Shown piece after piece: positions 6,131 to 14,382 of a DNA stretch of 14,382 nucleotides. This DNA is from Chitinophagaceae bacterium. GTDB taxonomy: Bacteria; Bacteroidota; Bacteroidia; Chitinophagales; Chitinophagaceae. The stretch lies in assembly GCA_026785745.1 (NCBI GenBank), contig JAJAZO010000482.1, forward strand, positions 1 to 14,382, read 5' to 3'. The position numbers were made by a program, and so were the translations under genes. Every line of letters begins with the position of its first letter. Position 1 is the stretch's first letter. The notes below the pieces were generated by a model. That model saw nothing but the letters and a program-made list of their open reading frames with translations. It searched no databases and was not told the DNA's origin.

Positions 6131-6520
6131 ATGAAAAGGATCAAACTCTTATTTTCTGCCACAATGCTGCTGATGGCTTCAGTAGCATTTGGACAAACAG
6201 AAAAAAATGTATCTGCTTTCAAAGAAGGTACAACATTAACCGATTCGGACATAGGTTTTTTAAGCCTTGTTTCGAGTGCAGCTCTTGATGTTAGCCGCGG
6301 TGCATCTGACAGAACAGCCACTATCAGCGGTGTAACTTACAGAACCGGTCAGGTGCTGACCAGTGCAAATGCCAAATCAATTAACAAGGCAGTTAAAGCA
6401 TTCCGGAAGAATTACAAAGCTCCTGAAGGTTCCCGTGGTGCAGGCCTTTGTTACTACTGGTACTACTATTGTGATGGTTGGGGATATTGCTATTGGTACA
6501 AGTATTGGTACTACTGTTAA
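6131..6520 (+). CDS. small secreted protein with Tyr/Trp/Cys-rich C-terminus
   Basis: A 129-residue protein of no family I recognise. Residues 1-21 form a clear signal peptide (KRIK start, hydrophobic core, cleavage near AFG-Q). A soluble middle part (23-100) is Ser/Thr/Ala-rich with a basic helix (82-97). After an EGSRGAG hinge (99-105) the last 23 residues (107-129) contain 11 Tyr, 4 Trp and 4 Cys, with four other residues, and the protein ends on Cys. The four Cys could make two disulfides, bind metal, or be modified. The gene stands alone with 239 bp upstream and a strong terminator 9 bp downstream, so it is its own transcription unit. The reading frame is supported by the signal peptide and by the stop lying just before the terminator. 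An adhesive, metal-binding or peptide-product role is only a guess. Confidence 0.85.
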   Translation: MKRIKLLFSATMLLMASVAFGQTEKNVSAFKEGTTLTDSDIGFLSLVSSAALDVSRGASDRTATISGVTYRTGQVLTSANAKSINKAVKAFRKNYKAPEGSRGAGLCYYWYYYCDGWGYCYWYKYWYYC

Positions 6521-6528
6521 GAAATTTC

Positions 6529-6557
6529 AAAGCCGGTTCAATTGAGCCGGCTTTTTT
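6529..6557 (+). terminator. intrinsic terminator of the secreted-protein gene
   Basis: A 12-bp stem (AAAGCCGGTTCA with TGAGCCGGCTTT, one G-T wobble) closes on a 2-nt loop and runs into a row of T. It begins 9 bp after the stop at 6520. The stem could also act on mtaB transcripts coming from the other side, although there the T-run is poor. Confidence 0.9.
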
Positions 6558-6578
6558 ATTCTCTGCAAAGTGGTGTTA

Positions 6579-7886
6579 TTATATTTTCCACTCCACCACC
6601 TCATTTTCCCATTCGGGGCGGTAGGGTGTAGCAGCTTTAATATAATTATCTGTATAGCCCTCAATCATATCGTTCTTATCTTTTCCTTCAAACAGTACTT
6701 TGCGGATTTGCCCTGCATGTTGTTGAGTAAAGTATTGCAGTTTCATGTAAGAAAGATTGCGCAGCGTTTTGTTCCTTTCATTACGGATATTAACGGGAAT
6801 AACCGGCTTCAAGGTTAGTGCATGAGTGTTATTCCTTTCAGAATAAGTGAATACATGCAGATATGAAATATCTAAGGAATGAAGAAAGTCAAATGTTTCT
6901 TTAAAATCTTCATCGGTTTCGCCGGGAAACCCTACGATAACATCCACTCCAATAGCACAATGAGGCATTAATGTTTTAATCAATGCAACTCTCTCTGCGT
7001 ATAGTTCTCTTTTATACCGCCGACGCATTAATCCTAGAACTTTATTGCTGCCACTTTGCAATGGAATATGAAAATGAGGCATGAATTTATCACTGTTGGC
7101 AACAAACTCAATTATCTCATTCGTCAATAAATTCGGTTCAATAGAAGAGATACGATAACGTTGAATACCTTCTACCTCTTCAAGAGCTTGTATAAGACTA
7201 AAAAAGTTTTCTTTCTTTAAAGTTTCTAAAGTCCCCTTTAGAGCCTGTCCCGACAATGCGAGAGGGTTTGGGGGTTCAAAATCCCCAAGGTTTACACCCG
7301 TTAACACTATTTCCTTTACACCATGTTTAGCTAAATGTTTAACATTCTCCAGCACATTTTCTATGCTATCACTCCTGCTTTTCCCTCTTGCCATCGGGAT
7401 AGTGCAGAAGGAACAATTATAATCGCAACCATCCTGTACTTTTAAAAAAGTTCTTGTTCTGTCATTCACCGACCAGGAAGAATGAAAGCCGGATACTTCT
7501 TCAATATCGCAACTACAGATTTTTGCCGAATCGCCTTTCACCAGTTCACGGATATGATGGACTATATTAAATTTTTCCGCAGCACCTAATACTAAGTTCA
7601 CCCCCGGTATTTGGGAAATTTCTTTTGGTTTTAATTGGGCATAACAACCAGTAATGACCACAAAACTTTCTGGTGCTTTTCGTTGTATCCGGCGTACCAA
7701 CTGGCGGCATTCTTTATCTGCATTGTCAGTAACGGAACAGGTATTGATTACATACACATCTGCCAGGTCATCAAAAGCCTTTTTCTCAAAACCTTCATTT
7801 TCCAACAGGCGGGAAAGAGAAGATGTTTCGGAAAAATTGAGCTTGCAACCGAGGGTATGAAAGGCTACTGTTCTTGATTCTGCCAT
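6579..7886 (-). CDS. mtaB: tRNA t6A37 methylthiotransferase MtaB
   Basis: A 435-residue radical-SAM methylthiotransferase that turns t6A at position 37 of tRNA into ms2t6A. The N-terminal MTTase domain holds three cluster ligands Cys14 (LGCKLN), Cys50 (NTCSV) and Cys81 (GCYAQ). The radical-SAM cluster is C154-x3-C158-x2-C161 (DGCDYNCSFC). A TRAM-like end covers roughly 385-435. TLGCKLN and NTCSVTDNAD fit MtaB better than MiaB. Odd: residues about 204-225 (PPNPLALSGQALKG and neighbours) form an insertion between GVNLGDF and ENFFSLIQ that corresponds to a repeat element at 7212-7277. A TATCTTTG box lies about 70 bp upstream. It is transcribed alone and convergent to the secreted-protein gene. 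Confidence 0.93.
   Translation of the reverse strand: MAESRTVAFHTLGCKLNFSETSSLSRLLENEGFEKKAFDDLADVYVINTCSVTDNADKECRQLVRRIQRKAPESFVVITGCYAQLKPKEISQIPGVNLVLGAAEKFNIVHHIRELVKGDSAKICSCDIEEVSGFHSSWSVNDRTRTFLKVQDGCDYNCSFCTIPMARGKSRSDSIENVLENVKHLAKHGVKEIVLTGVNLGDFEPPNPLALSGQALKGTLETLKKENFFSLIQALEEVEGIQRYRISSIEPNLLTNEIIEFVANSDKFMPHFHIPLQSGSNKVLGLMRRRYKRELYAERVALIKTLMPHCAIGVDVIVGFPGETDEDFKETFDFLHSLDISYLHVFTYSERNNTHALTLKPVIPVNIRNERNKTLRNLSYMKLQYFTQQHAGQIRKVLFEGKDKNDMIEGYTDNYIKAATPYRPEWENEVVEWKI
7212..7277 (-). repeat. in-frame repeat insertion within mtaB
   Basis: On the minus strand this contains CCCAAACCCT, then about 20 bp with GTCGGGACAGG, then CTCTAAAGGGGACTTTAGA. The two outer parts match the plsC-end element (9377-9408: CCCCAAACCC joined directly to CTAAAGGGGCTTTAGA), so this copy looks like the same element with an internal extra segment. 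It adds about 22 codons without breaking the frame, between conserved parts of the radical-SAM domain. Confidence 0.65.
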
Positions 7887-9432: not shown

Positions 9433-11952
9433 ATGCAGCAGGAAATTATAAATATGAATGCAACCGGTTCCCCTTTAGGGGTGGAGGGGTTTTATGCCGA
9501 AATCATCATACCCGCCGCTTTACCTAAAAACTATACCTGGTCGGTTCCTGCCCATTTACTTGAAGCAGTAAAACCCGGTTGCCGGGTAGAAGTGAACCTC
9601 GGTAAAAGCAAGAAATATGCTGGCATTGTAAAAAGGTTACTGATAGATAAACCTGAGTTTATTGAAACAAAAGATATTCTGAATGTACTGGATGTGGAAC
9701 CGGTAGTGTTTGAAGAGCAGTTGAAACTATGGGAATGGATAGCTTCTTATTATATGTGCAGTGAAGGAGAAGTGATGGCAGCGGCGTTGCCCGCACATTT
9801 TAAACTCTCCAGCGAAACAATTATTGTTTATAATGAAGAATACGGCGATAATTTTTCGGCCCTCAATCATGATGAATATATTGTTGCAGAAGCATTGCTG
9901 ATAAAAAAAGAATTGCGGCTGACAGAAGTACAACAGTTGCTGGACTCATCCCATGCCCGCCTGCCGGACAGGCAGGTCTATCCGGTTATTAATAGCCTTA
10001 TCAATAAAAAAACCTGTTTTGTATGGGAAGCATTGAAACAAACCTATGCACCCAAAAAGGAAACGTATGTGCTGCTGAACCCGGAGTATGATAATGAAGA
10101 CAAACTCTCTGACTTGCTTAATAACTGGACAAAGGCTCCCAAGCAGATGGAACTCCTGCTCAGTTATCTACATTTGATGAAAACAGAAGGGGAGGTGGTA
10201 AAATTAACATTACTGAAAAAATCCGGGGCAACGGATGCACAGTTGAAAGGGTTGGTAGAAAAGAAAATCCTCTGGCTGGAGAAAAAAACTATTGACAGGA
10301 TAAAATACCTGCCCAAAAATGTGCAGATTGATTTTGAACTGAGCAAAGCACAGCAAAAAGCATTGGAGCAGGTAAAAGAACAACTCGGCGCAAAACCAGT
10401 TTGTTTACTTCACGGTGTAACTTCCAGCGGCAAGACAAATATTTATATCAAACTGATTGAAGAATATATCAAACAGGGCAAGCAGGTATTGTACATGTTG
10501 CCGGAGATTGCACTTACATCACAGGTGATACGAAGATTACAAAAACATTTTGGAGGCTACATTGGTATCTATCATTCCAAATTTTCGCAAAATGAAAGAG
10601 TGGAAATATGGAATAAAGTGAAAAATGGAGAACTGAGAGTGATACTTGGTGCAAGATCTTCAGTGTTTCTTCCGTATCAGAACCTCGGTATGATAATCTG
10701 CGATGAAGAAAATGATACTTCTTACAAGCAACAGGAACCGGCACCAAGATACAATGGCCGTGATGTGGCTATTTATTTTGCTTCCTTATTTAACGCCAAA
10801 GTTTTATTGGGAAGCGGTACACCATCCGTAGAAAGTTATTTTAACGGCAGTACCGGTAAATATGGTTTGGTAGAATTGCTGGTACGTTACGGTGATTTAA
10901 AATTGCCGCCGCTGGAATTTGTTGATACAAGAAAAGTTATCCAGAAAGACAGGTCAAAAGTAATGTTATCACCCCGGCTGATTGAAGCGGTAAATGAAGT
11001 GCTGGCAAGAAGCAAACAAATAATTCTTTTCCAGAACCGAAGGGGGTATGCACCATACCAGGTTTGTAGCACCTGCGGCTGGATACCGCAATGCAAATAC
11101 TGTGATGTATCGCTGACCTTTCATAAACTTAGTAATAAACTAATTTGTCATTATTGCGGCACTACATATCCGCCGGTACATACCTGTGCGGCCTGCGGCA
11201 GTGATAAGTTTACACAACGGAATTTCGGAACTGAAAAAATTGAAGAACAATTGCAGGAAACATTCCCCGATGCCAAAGTAGCGAGGATGGATATTGACAC
11301 CGTAAAAGGTAAAAATGCACATGATGTATTAATACAGCAATTTGAACAAAAGCGGATTGATATACTCGTAGGCACACAAATGGTGGTAAAAGGGCTTGAC
11401 TTTGATAATGTTGATTTGGTGGGCATATTAGATGCAGACGGGCTACTACATTTCGCCGACTTTAGAGTGAATGAAAGGGCTTTCCAACTGATAGAGCAGG
11501 TGAGTGGTCGTGCAGGCCGCAAAGATGAAATGGGAAAAGTATTAGTACAAACTTCTCAACCCACACACCCCGTATTACAATTTGTACATCAGCATGATTA
11601 TAAAATGATGTTTACCGAAGAACTAAAAAAGCGGAAAGAGTTTTTCTATCCTCCGTTCTCCCGTATCATTCATGTTACGTTCAAACATAAAATAAAAGAA
11701 GTAGTGGAAAGAGCAGCACTGCAATATGCCGAGGCAATGAAAGTTAAATACGGCCAGTATATCGTTGGCCCTGCTGAACCTGTTATCGGCCGAATAAGAA
11801 ACCAATACCTCGCAGAATTATTACTGAAACTGCCAAGAGATGGCAAAACGATTAATCAGTGTAAAAAAGATTTATTGGAACAAGTGGCTATACTGCATCA
11901 GCATAAGAGTTATCGGAGTGTGACGGTGGTGGCGGATGTGGATGCGGTGTAG
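9433..11952 (+). CDS. priA: primosomal protein N' (PriA helicase)
   Basis: An 839-residue replication-restart helicase. The N-terminal 3'-DNA-binding domain begins at FYAEIIIPAALPKNYTWSVP (20-39). Helicase motifs: Walker A GVTSSGKT (328-335), motif II DEEND (424-428, where DEEH is usual), LLGSGTPS (458-465), GTEKIEEQL (599-607), and QVSGRAGR (689-696). Eight zinc-binding Cys lie at 545, 548, 554, 557, 572, 575, 585 and 588. The protein ends in the conserved VADVD segment, so it is complete. The first about 18 residues come from a repeat (9469-9493), so the true start may be the ATG at 9433 or 9454. Residues 175-183 (RLPDRQ region) come from another in-frame palindrome. The gene follows plsC by 12 bp. 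Its last 65 bp recur twice downstream. Confidence 0.97.
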   Translation: MQQEIINMNATGSPLGVEGFYAEIIIPAALPKNYTWSVPAHLLEAVKPGCRVEVNLGKSKKYAGIVKRLLIDKPEFIETKDILNVLDVEPVVFEEQLKLWEWIASYYMCSEGEVMAAALPAHFKLSSETIIVYNEEYGDNFSALNHDEYIVAEALLIKKELRLTEVQQLLDSSHARLPDRQVYPVINSLINKKTCFVWEALKQTYAPKKETYVLLNPEYDNEDKLSDLLNNWTKAPKQMELLLSYLHLMKTEGEVVKLTLLKKSGATDAQLKGLVEKKILWLEKKTIDRIKYLPKNVQIDFELSKAQQKALEQVKEQLGAKPVCLLHGVTSSGKTNIYIKLIEEYIKQGKQVLYMLPEIALTSQVIRRLQKHFGGYIGIYHSKFSQNERVEIWNKVKNGELRVILGARSSVFLPYQNLGMIICDEENDTSYKQQEPAPRYNGRDVAIYFASLFNAKVLLGSGTPSVESYFNGSTGKYGLVELLVRYGDLKLPPLEFVDTRKVIQKDRSKVMLSPRLIEAVNEVLARSKQIILFQNRRGYAPYQVCSTCGWIPQCKYCDVSLTFHKLSNKLICHYCGTTYPPVHTCAACGSDKFTQRNFGTEKIEEQLQETFPDAKVARMDIDTVKGKNAHDVLIQQFEQKRIDILVGTQMVVKGLDFDNVDLVGILDADGLLHFADFRVNERAFQLIEQVSGRAGRKDEMGKVLVQTSQPTHPVLQFVHQHDYKMMFTEELKKRKEFFYPPFSRIIHVTFKHKIKEVVERAALQYAEAMKVKYGQYIVGPAEPVIGRIRNQYLAELLLKLPRDGKTINQCKKDLLEQVAILHQHKSYRSVTVVADVDAV
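9469..9493 (-). repeat. inverted copy of the repeat at the 5' end of priA
   Basis: On the minus strand it reads AAAACCCC, a 3-bp spacer, then ACCCCTAAAGGGGA, almost the same as the plsC-end copy. It codes for SPLGVEGF near the PriA N-terminus. With 9377-9399 it forms an inverted pair around the plsC stop and the priA start. Confidence 0.6.
9960..9976. repeat. small palindrome in frame within priA
   Basis: CCTGCC-GGACA-GGCAGG, 6-bp arms around a 5-nt loop. It codes for LPDRQ in a poorly conserved part of PriA between the DNA-binding and helicase domains. G+C-rich palindromes of this kind are scattered in many Bacteroidota genomes. Confidence 0.5.
11888..11952 (+). repeat. priA-tail direct repeat, copy 1 (native gene end)
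   Basis: The last 65 bp of priA, from CTATACTGCAT to the TAG stop. It recurs with 59/65 identity at 13257-13321 and in decayed form at 14078-14141, always in the same direction. Confidence 0.95.
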
Positions 11953-11984
11953 CATGTGAAAGCAGCGCAGAAAGAAGTAGTTTT

Positions 11985-13136
11985 TTAAAATAATTCATTC
12001 CAGGGCATTACCAGAATATTGCCACTTCTTTTTTGCATTGTTTTTCCACCATACACCAGTTGCTTCTCCTTTGTTTTTTTATTTAAGGAAGAAAAATAGT
12101 TAAGCCCTTTGAAAAAATCCTGGGCTATTGTTTCGCCGGCTTTTAACTCCATCGCAATTAGTTTACCTGCATTGTCAATAAGTATATCCACTTCATTTCC
12201 TGTTTTGTCCCGCCAGTAATAAAGATTATCCTGCTGTCCCTTATTCAACCGCTCCTTCAGTAGCTCACTCACTATCATATTTTCAAATAATGGGCCTTTC
12301 GCAGCATGTGTTATTATTTGTTTTGCGTTATTTATTCCCAGTAAAGAACAGGCAACTCCGGTATCATAAAAATATAGCTTGGGTGTTTTGATAATACGTT
12401 TATTAAAACTACCATGGTAGGGTTTCAACAGGTAAATAATAAAACTACTTTGCAGTATGCCCAGCCATGCCGTTACTGTCTTCTGGTCAATACCGGAGTC
12501 ATTACCCAGCGAAGTCATATTTAATATCTGTCCTGTCCTTCCGGCACAAAGCCGTAGAAACTTGGCGAATTGCGACAAGTTGCTGATATTTTTTAATTGC
12601 CTTACATCTCTTTCCACATAGGTGTCCAGGTAACCGGAATACCAGTCTGCCGGGTTTATTTTTTTAGCAATTACTTCAGGATACCCTCCGTTCAGTATAT
12701 GCCAGCTATATGCTGCTTTCAGTCTTTTACTTTCCTTTAGCTCTGCCAGCGACAGCGGTAGTAATTGCAGGTAGGCAATCCTGCCGGATAATGTTTGTGT
12801 GATATTTTCTTGTAACAGGAAGTTATTGGAGCCGGTTAAGATAAAGAGTCCTCTCTTTTTTGTTTCGTCTAATACCTGCTGCAGATAGGAGAAAAGGTGT
12901 GGAGCTCTTTGTATTTCATCTAAAATAGCCCCGGTTTTAAATTGTGCCAGAAATCCACGGGGATCTGCTTTGGCAAATTCAAGTACGTCAGGGTTTTCAA
13001 GTGATATATATGGTTTATGGGGAAATACTAATCTGCACAGAGTGGTTTTGCCACTTTGCCTGGGGCCCACCACCGCTATGCTGCGGAAAGTGGCCGCCAG
13101 TTTTTGTAATCTTGCTTCTGCAGTTCTCTTTATCAT
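11985..13136 (-). CDS. AAA ATPase with DUF4143 domain
   Basis: A 383-residue ATP-binding protein of the AAA_14/DUF4143 type. Walker A is GPRQSGKT (24-31), Walker B AILDE (70-74), sensor-like ILTGSNN (99-105). The DUF4143 region covers about 170-335, with YVERDVRQL (173-181) and YFYDTGVACSLLG (255-267). A nuclease-like core is visible as FENMIVSEL (284-292), NEVDILID (314-321) and AMELKAG (328-334; Asp317, Glu330, Lys332), like a PD-(D/E)xK fold. These proteins are common, patchy in distribution and of unknown role. The gene is the only content of the segment between priA-tail copies 1 and 2, in the opposite direction to priA, and a 39-bp palindrome lies 19 bp before its start. It appears intact. 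Confidence 0.93.
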   Translation of the reverse strand: MIKRTAEARLQKLAATFRSIAVVGPRQSGKTTLCRLVFPHKPYISLENPDVLEFAKADPRGFLAQFKTGAILDEIQRAPHLFSYLQQVLDETKKRGLFILTGSNNFLLQENITQTLSGRIAYLQLLPLSLAELKESKRLKAAYSWHILNGGYPEVIAKKINPADWYSGYLDTYVERDVRQLKNISNLSQFAKFLRLCAGRTGQILNMTSLGNDSGIDQKTVTAWLGILQSSFIIYLLKPYHGSFNKRIIKTPKLYFYDTGVACSLLGINNAKQIITHAAKGPLFENMIVSELLKERLNKGQQDNLYYWRDKTGNEVDILIDNAGKLIAMELKAGETIAQDFFKGLNYFSSLNKKTKEKQLVYGGKTMQKRSGNILVMPWNELF

Positions 13137-13155
13137 GCCATAAAGATAATATTAT

Positions 13156-13194
13156 TTTGGACAAATCCGGAATTCAATTCCGGATTTGTCCAAA
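13156..13194. repeat. 39-bp palindrome with 19-bp perfect arms
   Basis: TTTGGACAAATCCGGAATT, one central C, then its exact reverse complement. It ends 19 bp from the ATPase start codon and 62 bp before priA-tail copy 2. It has no T-run, so it is not a normal terminator. It may be an operator, a recombination or nicking site, or a cruciform. Confidence 0.85.
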
Positions 13195-13256
13195 CGGGTT
13201 CGAGCTTTAAAGCGATGCAGCATTATGGTTGAGTGAGAATTACTTACCAGGAAGTT

Positions 13257-13321
13257 CTATCCTGCATCAGCATAAAAGCTATAGAAGTGTGACGGTAGTG
13301 GCGGATGTGGATGCGGTGTAG
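13257..13321 (+). repeat. priA-tail direct repeat, copy 2 (synonymous variant)
   Basis: 59 of 65 bp match copy 1. Read in the priA frame it gives ILHQHKSYRSV...DVDAV and the stop, identical to PriA residues 820-839: all six substitutions are synonymous. Homology stops sharply upstream at CTAT. Confidence 0.92.
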
Positions 13322-13336
13322 GAAAAGTAGTTGCTA

Positions 13337-13663
13337 TTAAATAAGCCGTAAGTGCTGATTTTCTAATTTTACGTTGAAATGAATATCTGCTTTTAAGGCT
13401 TTGAAAACTTTAAGAACAGTATCAATAGTTGCACTGTTTGCACTGCTTTCCAGTTTGGATATTTGTGCTTTTTGAACACCTACCAATTTCCCTAGTTGCT
13501 CTTGTGTCAGGTTACGTTCCTGCCGGGCTTTTTTAATCATATGGCTCAACACCTCCATATTAAGTTTATATTCATAGTCCTCTCTTTTTTTAGTTCCTTT
13601 TTTCCCAATGAACTCATCCTTCATTTCATCAAGGGAATATGTTTTTGGCTTTATTTTTTTCAT
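13337..13663 (-). CDS. XRE-family antitoxin (HigA-like)
   Basis: A 108-residue protein starting at the ATG 13663; an in-frame ATG 18 codons upstream (13717) would overlap the toxin gene and seems less likely. The N-terminal part is basic (KKIKPKTYSLDEMKDEFIGK). A helix-turn-helix of the Cro/cI type covers about 43-97: ARQERNLTQEQLGKLVGVQKAQ, then ISKLESSANSATIDTVLKVFKAL. It begins 4 bp after the toxin stop, the toxin-first order of HigBA systems. It would bind and silence the toxin and repress the shared promoter. Flanked by priA-tail copies 2 and 3 together with the toxin gene. Confidence 0.9.
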   Translation of the reverse strand: MKKIKPKTYSLDEMKDEFIGKKGTKKREDYEYKLNMEVLSHMIKKARQERNLTQEQLGKLVGVQKAQISKLESSANSATIDTVLKVFKALKADIHFNVKLENQHLRLI

Positions 13664-13667
13664 ATAA

Positions 13668-14018
13668 TTATTTTTTTTGTTTAAAATGATTTCTGCGAAT
13701 ATTTTCGGCTTTGTCAATTTCTTTCTGTGGTACTTTATCCGTTTTTTTTATAATGCCGTGGGTTGCTAGGACTAGGGTATCTGTAATATCGGTTTTATCC
13801 CAAAAGGCTAAAAGCCGATATTGAAGATTTCTGTATTTTGTTCTGAACTCCCATATATTATTATTTAATTTTTTGAAGAGTTTCGGGTCATTTGTTTGTT
13901 CTGCTATGTTTAAGTTGTAAATTATTTTATCTGCCGCTTTTTCATCTATAGATTTCAAAAACTCCCTAACCTCTTCAAAGAATTCAGTTCTAAAGTATCT
14001 GACTCTGTTGCCATGCAT
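13668..14018 (-). CDS. RelE/HigB-type toxin (Gp49-like family)
   Basis: A 116-residue protein of the phage-derived Gp49-like/HigB toxin family, expected to cut mRNA on the ribosome. Seen: EFFEEVREFLKSIDEKAADKI (12-32), the core IWEFRTKYRNLQYRLLAFWD (54-73), and the family's typical end LATHGIIKKTDKVPQKEID (83-101) followed by KAENIRRNHF. A TATATTTG promoter box lies 4 nt before the ATG, suggesting a leaderless transcript that then runs into the antitoxin gene 4 bp on. The region is visibly richer in A+T than priA. Which Arg/Lys residues are catalytic I cannot confirm. Confidence 0.9.
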   Translation of the reverse strand: MHGNRVRYFRTEFFEEVREFLKSIDEKAADKIIYNLNIAEQTNDPKLFKKLNNNIWEFRTKYRNLQYRLLAFWDKTDITDTLVLATHGIIKKTDKVPQKEIDKAENIRRNHFKQKK

Positions 14019-14022
14019 ATTG

Positions 14023-14030
14023 CAAATATA
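14023..14030 (-). promoter_or_regulatory. probable -7 box of the toxin-antitoxin operon
   Basis: On the minus strand this reads TATATTTG, a perfect TAnnTTTG match, 4 nt before the toxin ATG. The expected transcription start falls at or close to the start codon. Confidence 0.55.
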
Positions 14031-14077
14031 ATAAACGGTTTCTAAATATAGAGACTATATTTTCTTATTACGAATTG

Positions 14078-14141
14078 CTATCCTGCATAAGAATAAAAGT
14101 TTCAGAAGTGTGAGGTGGTGGCAGATGTGGATGCGGTGTGA
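14078..14141 (+). repeat. priA-tail direct repeat, copy 3 (decayed)
   Basis: Matches the priA tail with about ten substitutions and a one-base deletion (GTGACGG to GTGAGG). In the priA frame it begins ILHKNKSFRSV, with amino-acid changes, then shifts frame and loses the stop. It looks older than copy 2. Confidence 0.8.
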
Positions 14142-14161: not shown

Positions 14162-14285
14162 TTATCGCAGTAAGGATTTTAATTCTTCTATTGAGATTGC
14201 TTCTTTTCTTTTATGAATCATTGCATGACAGTTGGGGCAAACTGGTCTTAGGTCTTTTATTGGGTCAATTATAGATTCCTGACCA
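14162..14285 (-). pseudogene. C-terminal remnant of an HNH endonuclease
   Basis: On the minus strand this encodes ESIIDPIKDLRPVCPNCHAM, then IHKRKEAISIEELKSLLR and a TAA stop at 14162-14164. The CPNCHAMIH part is the C-terminal half of an HNH nuclease site (two zinc Cys plus a catalytic-site His), and IDPIKDLRPVC is the usual segment just before it. The first HNH His and everything upstream are missing. Homology ends where a repeat array (14286 on) begins, so an insertion has probably removed or separated the 5' part. An ATG at 14299 would give a 45-residue peptide, not a working nuclease. The stump lies 20 bp beyond priA-tail copy 3. Confidence 0.75.
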
Positions 14286-14382
14286 TGTTGACCCACCATT
14301 CCTATTCATGTTGACCCACCATTCTTGCATGTTGACCCACCTCAAAATAGTTTTGCTGGTGTTGTTTATTCTTGCATGTTGA
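14286..14382. mobile_element. probable end of an insertion sequence with repeated terminal motifs (runs off the window)
   Basis: CATGTTGACCCACC occurs at 14284-14297, 14307-14320 and 14328-14341, and a fourth copy starts at 14375 and is cut by the window edge. Several spaced copies of a terminal motif starting TGTTGA resemble ends of IS21-type elements, which carry multiple transposase sites. Its edge coincides with the break in the HNH gene. No transposase is inside the window, so the family is a guess. Confidence 0.5.

Follow-up and report, generated by a model that had tools for sequence, protein, structure and literature searches.

How small defence and toxin-antitoxin genes travel from one chromosome to another, with no mobile element in sight, is a long-standing question. 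The stretch of DNA analysed here (the window: 14,382 nt, the entire contig C482 of a Chitinophagaceae genome of 2.82 Mb in 483 contigs, 73% complete) raises it in a compact form, as copies of the 3' end of priA lie behind the gene itself, with such genes packed between them. Where did these copies come from, and what process could have strung them together with their cargo?

Anatomy of the array behind priA

The priA gene (9433..11952, plus strand) is intact and encodes 839 aa with the Pfam domains PriA_3primeBD, DEAD, Zn_ribbon_PriA and PriA_C. As the preliminary description had claimed, the last 65 bp of its functional end (11888..11952, plus strand; tail copy 1) recur twice downstream in the same orientation, at 13257..13321 (copy 2) and 14078..14141 (copy 3), both on the plus strand. 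The result is a set of direct repeats at the priA 3' end, attL/attR-like in arrangement, that leaves priA itself whole. Copy 2 is 91% identical to copy 1, and all 6 differences are synonymous. Copy 3 is the most decayed of the three tails: it has 64 nt (84% identity), has lost one base and carries one Gln-to-Lys change relative to the tail typical of the genus, codons being read by eye. A 23-nt tail probe allowing up to 3 mismatches matched the window three times against 0.00 expected (200 shuffles), and a search of the 73% complete genome with the 65-mer at E 0.001, as the description had proposed, returned the three window copies and no further ones.

The description also had the homology begin abruptly at CTAT in both downstream copies. 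This is true of copy 2 (p 0.32 for any extension), but copy 3, compared with priA of other species, may reach ~8 nt further upstream (p 0.06); the 17 nt upstream of copies 2 and 3 bear a slight likeness to one another (p 0.05). On the other side the homology goes no further than the stop codon, in the window as well as in the two further genomes, G355 and G356, treated below.

Pfam domains bear out the described gene content: an ATPase gene lies between copies 1 and 2, a toxin-antitoxin pair between copies 2 and 3. Cassette A is one AAA_14 + DUF4143 ATPase gene (11985..13136, minus strand; E 4.5e-51 and 2.4e-26) whose stop codon lies 32 nt past tail copy 1. It matches the PADLOC candidate profile PDC-S01 over its full length (E 1.4e-107, residues 1-382 of 383), which makes it a candidate single-gene phage-defence system. 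Cassette B is a putative HigBA-type toxin-antitoxin pair on the minus strand: a HigA-like HTH antitoxin (13337..13717; HTH_3, E 2.3e-12), with its stop 15 nt past copy 2 and its true start, judging from the ORF, probably at an ATG near 13663, and a Gp49/HigB-type toxin (13668..14018; PF05973, E 6.9e-16). Past copy 3, where the description placed an HNH nuclease remnant, there is indeed a gene end (cassette C remnant; 14162..14284, minus strand), its stop 20 nt past the tail, but its translation runs to just 40 residues and its HNH match (E 0.0085) falls under the Pfam cut-off. This HNH-like gene is interrupted by a 23-bp tandem repeat (CATGTTGACCCACC...; 14284..14341, no strand), perhaps, at a guess, the end of an insertion sequence. 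The genes are tightly packed between the tails. The priA cassettes measure 0.56-1.3 kb, each with one gene or one pair, and showed no remains of integration or transfer genes.

The priA end in other genomes

Among 202 distinct priA loci, a second tail was present in four: the window itself, a plain tandem duplication (L036; period 203 bp, taking in the priA tail) and two sister genomes of one distant Bacteroidetes genus, G355 and G356. The cassettes of these two genomes differ, one being RelB/RelE and the other a HEPN-like pair; the site is empty in a third genome of the genus, G364. Past the second tail of G356, a third tail did not rise above chance. Together with the single tail of nearly all relatives, the empty site and the alternative cassettes support the proposal of the preliminary description that insertion at the priA end was repeated, the newcomer supplying a priA tail; they suggest that newcomers repeatedly came with a priA end of their own and pushed the old one downstream. 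Neither the cassette A ATPase nor HigBA nor the HNH fragment had a match behind priA in 211 loci (E 0.01). In one genome, G272, a HigBA pair does lie ~6.5 kb behind priA, which we regard as chance neighbourhood: a murB-like gene directly follows priA, and no further copy of the priA tail turned up within 17 kb (best score 22, reverse control 21).

How unusual this is for a gene end was gauged with 4442 ORF tails in 220 loci around priA (any ORF, real or spurious, with 120 or more codons from stop to stop), which gave 14 same-strand repeats from 12 ORFs. By eye all but one were ordinary: tandem paralogues, antisense frames of repetitive genes, tRNA/IS200-type duplicates and L036. The exception, L100, is one unselected cassette case in 214 loci, some genomes being counted twice, so that priA stands out among gene tails by a weak contrast. 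Repeats also flanked HigBA at 4 of 23 loci as against 2 of 250 random windows, the latter unmatched for intergenic position (of 29 loci outside the window, 6 under 3.2 kb were dropped, including L244 with a 206-bp repeat). Since these repeats are mostly palindromes or dispersed, and the windows unmatched, we conclude nothing from them; a single-copy version of the L244 site was not found in 3 other genomes of its genus.

Divergence of the tails and origin of the array

Differences that are all synonymous, as are the six between copies 1 and 2, arose by chance in 9, 18 or 29 of 100,000 simulations, depending on the transition bias. The two copies thus appear formerly to have been separate functional alleles. 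Tails 1-3 differ from one another about as much as do the tails of different species. Across the 190 pairs formed by 20 relatives, the tail has a median identity of 0.77, against 0.30 for the 30 nt that follow, and a repeat that ends at the stop codon is what one expects if donor and host conserve coding DNA only. Synonymous differences combined with this limit make copy 2 look like a priA end that once worked in a diverged lineage rather than a neutral duplicate made in place. In G356, 5 of the 6 differences between its two tails within the last 75 nt are likewise synonymous (P 0.0022), and at the sixth it is the downstream copy that has the residue of the sister genomes; over the full repeat of ~105 nt the displaced copy has lost a base and gained three more substitutions, so it has drifted as well. 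The downstream copy of G355, with amino-acid replacements and a one-base insertion, shows no such signal.

Our best explanation, to which we would give an even chance, is that the array is the residue of successive insertions at the priA 3' end, each of which displaced the tail. From the divergence of the copies we infer that incoming DNA would have carried the priA end of a donor lineage, followed by a small cassette of defence or addiction genes; this donor end would have taken over as the working priA end, and the resident end, severed ~65-105 nt before the stop codon, would have shifted downstream as a relic. Displacement at each insertion would set the newest cassettes beside priA and leave the most degraded tail at the far end. 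The most likely engine would be homology-facilitated illegitimate recombination, with pairing by RecA within priA at one side and illegitimate joining at the other.

The spread of the junctions would fit tail displacement: they lie 65 nt (copy 2), 65-73 nt (copy 3), ~71-74 nt (G355) and ~105 nt (G356) before the stop codon, and apart from XerD-like genes in 3 of 214 loci no tyrosine recombinase was found beside priA. Against it, three of these junctions (copies 2 and 3, G355) fall within ~10 nt of one another, which a site-specific process explains better; none of the 211 loci proved to be a donor in which these cassette genes follow priA; and the G355 copy lacks the synonymous signal. Nor does the body of the window priA appear to contain a strong mosaic boundary. 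Its last 21 codons had the 4th lowest affinity of 810 windows to L022 and L023 in a post hoc test; these two are the closest by protein score, but judged by nucleotides across the gene L045 and L029 are equally close, and L045 (83% identical in the tail) was omitted from both groups. The same analysis found no shift in the priA of G355 and G356.

A site-specific process is the strongest competitor, and we regard it as possible if unlikely. The tail copies would be attachment sites, and the cassettes tiny integrative elements or shrunken remnants (CIMEs) carrying a priA tail, inserted serially by a site-specific recombinase since lost or acting from elsewhere. Gene-end direct repeats, an intact priA, tandem stacking and tight gene packing fit this, as do the junctions of copies 2 and 3, within ~8 nt of each other, and that of G355. 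The genome has 4 tyrosine recombinase matches, all on other contigs. PMC5704250 describes how elements that lack an integrase accumulate in tandem at gene ends. On the other hand, with the 4 matches as seeds, a search behind priA in 214 loci gave nothing but 3 close matches to a XerD-like protein and one weak match 12.6 kb away; there was no tyrosine recombinase in the window or in 185 kb of sequence covering the second genus and its family; and a search of the window's genome found no serine recombinase. The G356 junction also lies elsewhere. Eight pattern matches to a priA-like tail in viral contigs included 0 priA ends when the flanking peptide was judged by eye, and folding of the tails revealed nothing attC-like (z-scores -1.4 to 1.1).

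The preliminary description went further and raised the possibility of a dedicated cassette system docking at priA; against this stand the lack of an adjoining recombinase (of the tyrosine type searched for) and the G356 junction, ~30-40 nt off the others. The broader form of this idea, in which the priA end is a recurrent dock in Bacteroidota for recombinase-driven, integron-like miniature cassettes, the tail acting as attachment site for a cargo of single defence or toxin-antitoxin genes, strikes us as doubtful.

Distinctly doubtful, too, is long target duplication, in which a cassette inserts behind priA and makes a second copy, on the spot, of ~65-105 bp from the resident gene. Such a process has been proposed for restriction-modification units (reviewed in PMC3874152), and copy 3 and the downstream copy of G355 do have indels, as a neutral copy would. 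An unselected copy should, however, gain amino-acid changes and indels, whereas copy 2 has none beside its 6 synonymous differences, which conflicts with the plain duplication considered in the preliminary description; a homology limit at the stop codon would also be unexpected.

Mobility through RecA only, whereby a tail-flanked cassette leaves as a one-tail circle and re-enters another cell's priA within the tail, would account for divergent tails, stacking and the absence of a recombinase. We consider it very improbable: it leaves the first acquisition of a tail by a cassette unexplained, and 65 bp at ~90% identity is short for RecA exchange. An assembly artefact in the metagenome bin is scarcely credible, for although this array, like those of the two other cases, comes from a draft assembly, the same anatomy occurs in separate assemblies, and with copies 2 and 3 each joined to unique cassette sequence, the joining of strains at a common tail should not be able to build the chain.

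Wider meaning and comparison with known systems

If tails were displaced as we propose, a displaced gene end, kept as a relic, can reveal whether a newcomer brought foreign flanking DNA. The signature (a gene tail, a short defence cassette and a diverged tail copy reaching to the stop codon) is searchable at any gene, so that this route could be counted across genomes.

Integron gene cassettes carry one gene or operon per repeat unit in a direct-repeat array, as the priA array does. Unlike an integron, the priA array has no adjoining integrase (for the hallmark IntI, no tyrosine recombinase was found in the window) and no attC-like fold, and its repeat is a coding gene end. Among the titles and abstract openings covered, most subscription papers lying outside that scope, none describes defence or toxin-antitoxin cassettes at the priA end.

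The accretion of CIMEs and IMEs at gene 3' ends, as set out in PMC5704250, shares with priA the gene-end direct repeats, the tandem stacking and the lack of an integrase; the priA cassettes differ in their small size and content of one gene or pair, in the lack of integration or transfer relics and in having one junction elsewhere. The restriction-modification units reviewed in PMC3874152 are similar in their addiction or defence genes and in a duplication on the order of 100 bp, but at priA copies 1 and 2 have synonymous differences only, as separate functional alleles would. Closest to tail displacement are the arrays of displaced ends in T6SS effector-immunity and Rhs loci, for which PMC5361080 gives homology-facilitated illegitimate recombination as the explanation: there, as we propose for priA, a constant gene receives a new 3' part with cargo, the old part shifts downstream, and a serial array builds up. 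In those arrays the gene is a toxin gene and its variable end is itself the cargo, whereas at priA the housekeeping anchor is conserved, its end is preserved, and the cargo consists of unrelated defence and addiction genes.

Copies of the priA end and their cargo

In the window, priA (9433-11952, forward strand) is intact and has its full set of domains. The preliminary description held that its end, the last 65 bp (copy 1, 11888-11952), recurs twice downstream on the same strand, and both copies are present: copy 2 (13257-13321, forward) is 91% identical to the priA end, and copy 3 (14078-14141, forward) is 84% identical and one base shorter. When up to 3 mismatches are allowed, a 23-nt probe hits the three copies in the window and nothing else there (0.00 expected from 200 shuffles), and the 65-mer finds these three and no further match at E 0.001 in the assembly, which is 73% complete (483 contigs). 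Because the window is one complete contig, C482, the tail array may extend past 14382.

The cargo layout was largely as first described. Between copies 1 and 2 lies a single reverse-strand gene with domain matches to an AAA_14 + DUF4143 ATPase; it is a full-length match to the PADLOC candidate PDC-S01 (E 1.4e-107). The space between copies 2 and 3 holds a toxin-antitoxin pair, a Gp49/HigB-type toxin and an HTH antitoxin. The HNH nuclease remnant proposed behind copy 3 comes down to the final 40 codons of an HNH-like gene, with a Pfam HNH match (E 0.0085) under the cut-off. This gene is truncated near the contig end by a 23-bp tandem repeat (CATGTTGACCCACC..., 14284-14341), possibly an insertion-sequence end. 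All three cargo genes point toward priA, their stop codons lying 32, 15 and 20 nt past the preceding tail. A 99% identical copy of the ATPase (protein P0012) lies on another contig, of 2669 bases; the flanks of this copy could reveal a second strain's array. Elsewhere in the window, 6131-6520 (forward) encodes a secreted-looking small protein of 129 aa with a C-terminal run of Tyr, Trp and Cys (CYYWYYYCDGWGYCYWYKYWYYC).

Second tails at other priA loci

We compared the priA tail of each locus with that locus's own downstream DNA. A second tail was present in two of the 77 usable loci of the first set (L036 and L100; 80 obtained, 3 excluded for a missing gene end) and in one of 137 further genomes from this genus and family (G319; 140 obtained, 3 without a tail readable by script), whose contig is the same one as in L036. 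The window's own genus had none in 37 tested loci (40 obtained; 1.5 kb or more downstream in 34). The whole survey, including a second, distant Bacteroidetes genus and its family, covered 202 distinct loci having 500 bp or more of downstream DNA (1.5 kb in 191 of them). Four, the window among them, were positive, scoring 66-115 for the tail match, with 31 for the best non-positive and 32 for the best reverse-strand control. L036 holds a tandem duplication (6190-6640, period 203 bp) that spans the priA tail and downstream DNA; a third copy is partial, and cargo is absent. Any preference for priA is suggestive only: one unselected case in 214 loci versus none for the tails of other ORFs in that DNA.

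In many compared relatives priA is followed by variable small genes and then by an SDR-like and a murB-like gene (names given by eye to gene clusters in 17 and 20 of the 28 loci listed). The window's ATPase, HigBA and HNH fragment have no match at E 0.01 behind priA in 211 loci. In G272, from another genus of the family, a HigB relative (G272:C1:2360733-2361068) is found ~6.5 kb downstream of priA; there a murB-like gene directly follows priA, and no second priA tail occurs within 17 kb. At L244, a HigBA pair with a toxin 66% identical to the window's sits between 206-bp direct repeats (87.5% identical; 1139-1344 and 2258-2461), the right copy holding the start of a small gene. The repeat is possibly a long target duplication, but part of it recurs a third time nearby.

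Empty and alternative sites, the test set by the preliminary description itself, turned up in the second genus, an independent lineage. L100 (uncultured Bacteroidetes AM3_bin-0905, genome G355; PriA 45% identical to the window's) has priA, a RelB-like/RelE pair (PF18506, RelB-like and under its cut-off; PF05016; TIGR02385) and a tail copy ~560 nt past the stop codon; its genome holds these two tail copies and no others. The sister genome G356 (PriA 95% identical to that of L100) carries a ~0.9-kb cassette that does not align with the L100 cassette, and its tail copy ends 984 nt past the stop; neither of the two cassette genes has a Pfam match, and a distant relative of one carries a precomputed HEPN domain (PF05168). 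Cargo in this genus is co-directional with priA, opposite to the window's. In G364 (PriA 88%) a single tail is found in 4.7 kb, and L100 DNA beyond its repeat (from 117 nt on) aligns with G364 from 41 nt past the priA stop. The single tail of G364 and the unlike cassettes of L100 and G356 therefore show the same place empty once and filled by alternative cassettes twice. G356 was the one locus with a tail copy among 14 sampled from the genus (L100 lies outside the sample; two loci had <120 nt downstream), and 10 loci of the wider family had none within ~1.6 kb. Behind the second tail of G356 and before a peroxiredoxin-like gene (named by eye), its priA locus (L312, reverse strand) contains two overlapping small ORFs of 83 and 88 aa, 1043-1544 nt past the priA stop and without a Pfam match over cut-off; they may be an older cassette with a tail too decayed to recognise.

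Divergence of the tails

Judged by their sequences, the tail copies resemble functional alleles that have diverged. The 6 differences between copies 1 and 2 (65 positions) are all synonymous; simulated mutation of 6 positions left the peptide unchanged in 9, 18 or 29 of 100,000 trials under three transition biases. Over their last 75 positions the G356 tails show 6 differences. Five are synonymous (P 0.0022 for one or no amino-acid change), and in the remaining one the downstream copy has the sister genomes' residue. The full G356 repeat is ~105 nt long; in the displaced copy its upstream 30 nt have lost one base and carry three further substitutions. In copy 3 the Asn and Phe typical of the genus are retained, and relative to that type it has a single substitution and a missing base (by eye); the downstream copy of G355 is decayed, without usable synonymous signal. 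Repeat homology ends at the stop codon in the window, G355 and G356. Among 190 pairs from 20 relatives (19 congeners and a member of a sister genus) median identity is 0.77 in the tail and 0.30 in the next 30 nt, and homology ending at the stop is therefore expected of copies from different lineages.

Over its last 21 codons (rank 4 of 810 windows), the window's priA is unusually dissimilar to L022 and L023, the nearest relatives by PriA protein score. This is a weak signal, because L045 and L029 are equally close (whole-gene nucleotide identity 78.2 and 77.3, against 77.3 and 78.4 for L022 and L023), L045, 83% identical in the tail, was omitted from both groups of the mosaic comparison, the test was post hoc, and G355 and G356 show no corresponding shift.

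Origin of the array

Read from the anatomy, the resident priA was cut at least 65 nt before its stop and received a new end with cargo, its old end remaining downstream; two engines would produce this. We give about an even chance to displacement of the priA end through homology and illegitimate joining, in which the incoming fragment would pair with the gene on one side and join illegitimately on the other. In favour of such homology-facilitated illegitimate recombination we count the tiny cargo, the G356 junction, ~30-40 nt away from the other junctions, and the scarcity of recombinases near priA. Behind priA in 214 loci, tyrosine recombinases like the genome's four are limited to three XerD-like genes plus a weak match 12.6 kb off; none occurs in the window or in 185 kb of DNA of the second genus and its family, and the window's genome assembly has no serine recombinase. 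The same junction and scarcity speak against att-type site-specific accretion, in which each element carries the gene tail as its att site; we consider it rather unlikely, although the junctions of copies 2 and 3 agree within ~8 nt, that of G355 lies 71-74 nt before the stop, and accretion of this kind yields tandem stacks with integrase-less remnants (PMC5704250). In-place target duplication, with the cassette duplicating the resident priA end, appears improbable.

Insertions of R-M units accompanied by duplications on the scale of 100 bp have already been described (PMC3874152). In a mostly open-access literature we found no paper in which a housekeeping gene is followed by a stack of toxin-antitoxin or single-gene defence cassettes together with diverged copies of its end. 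The stacked, displaced gene ends of the array resemble those of T6SS effector-immunity and Rhs arrays, which PMC5361080 explains by homology-facilitated illegitimate recombination, a mechanism that its authors label putative.
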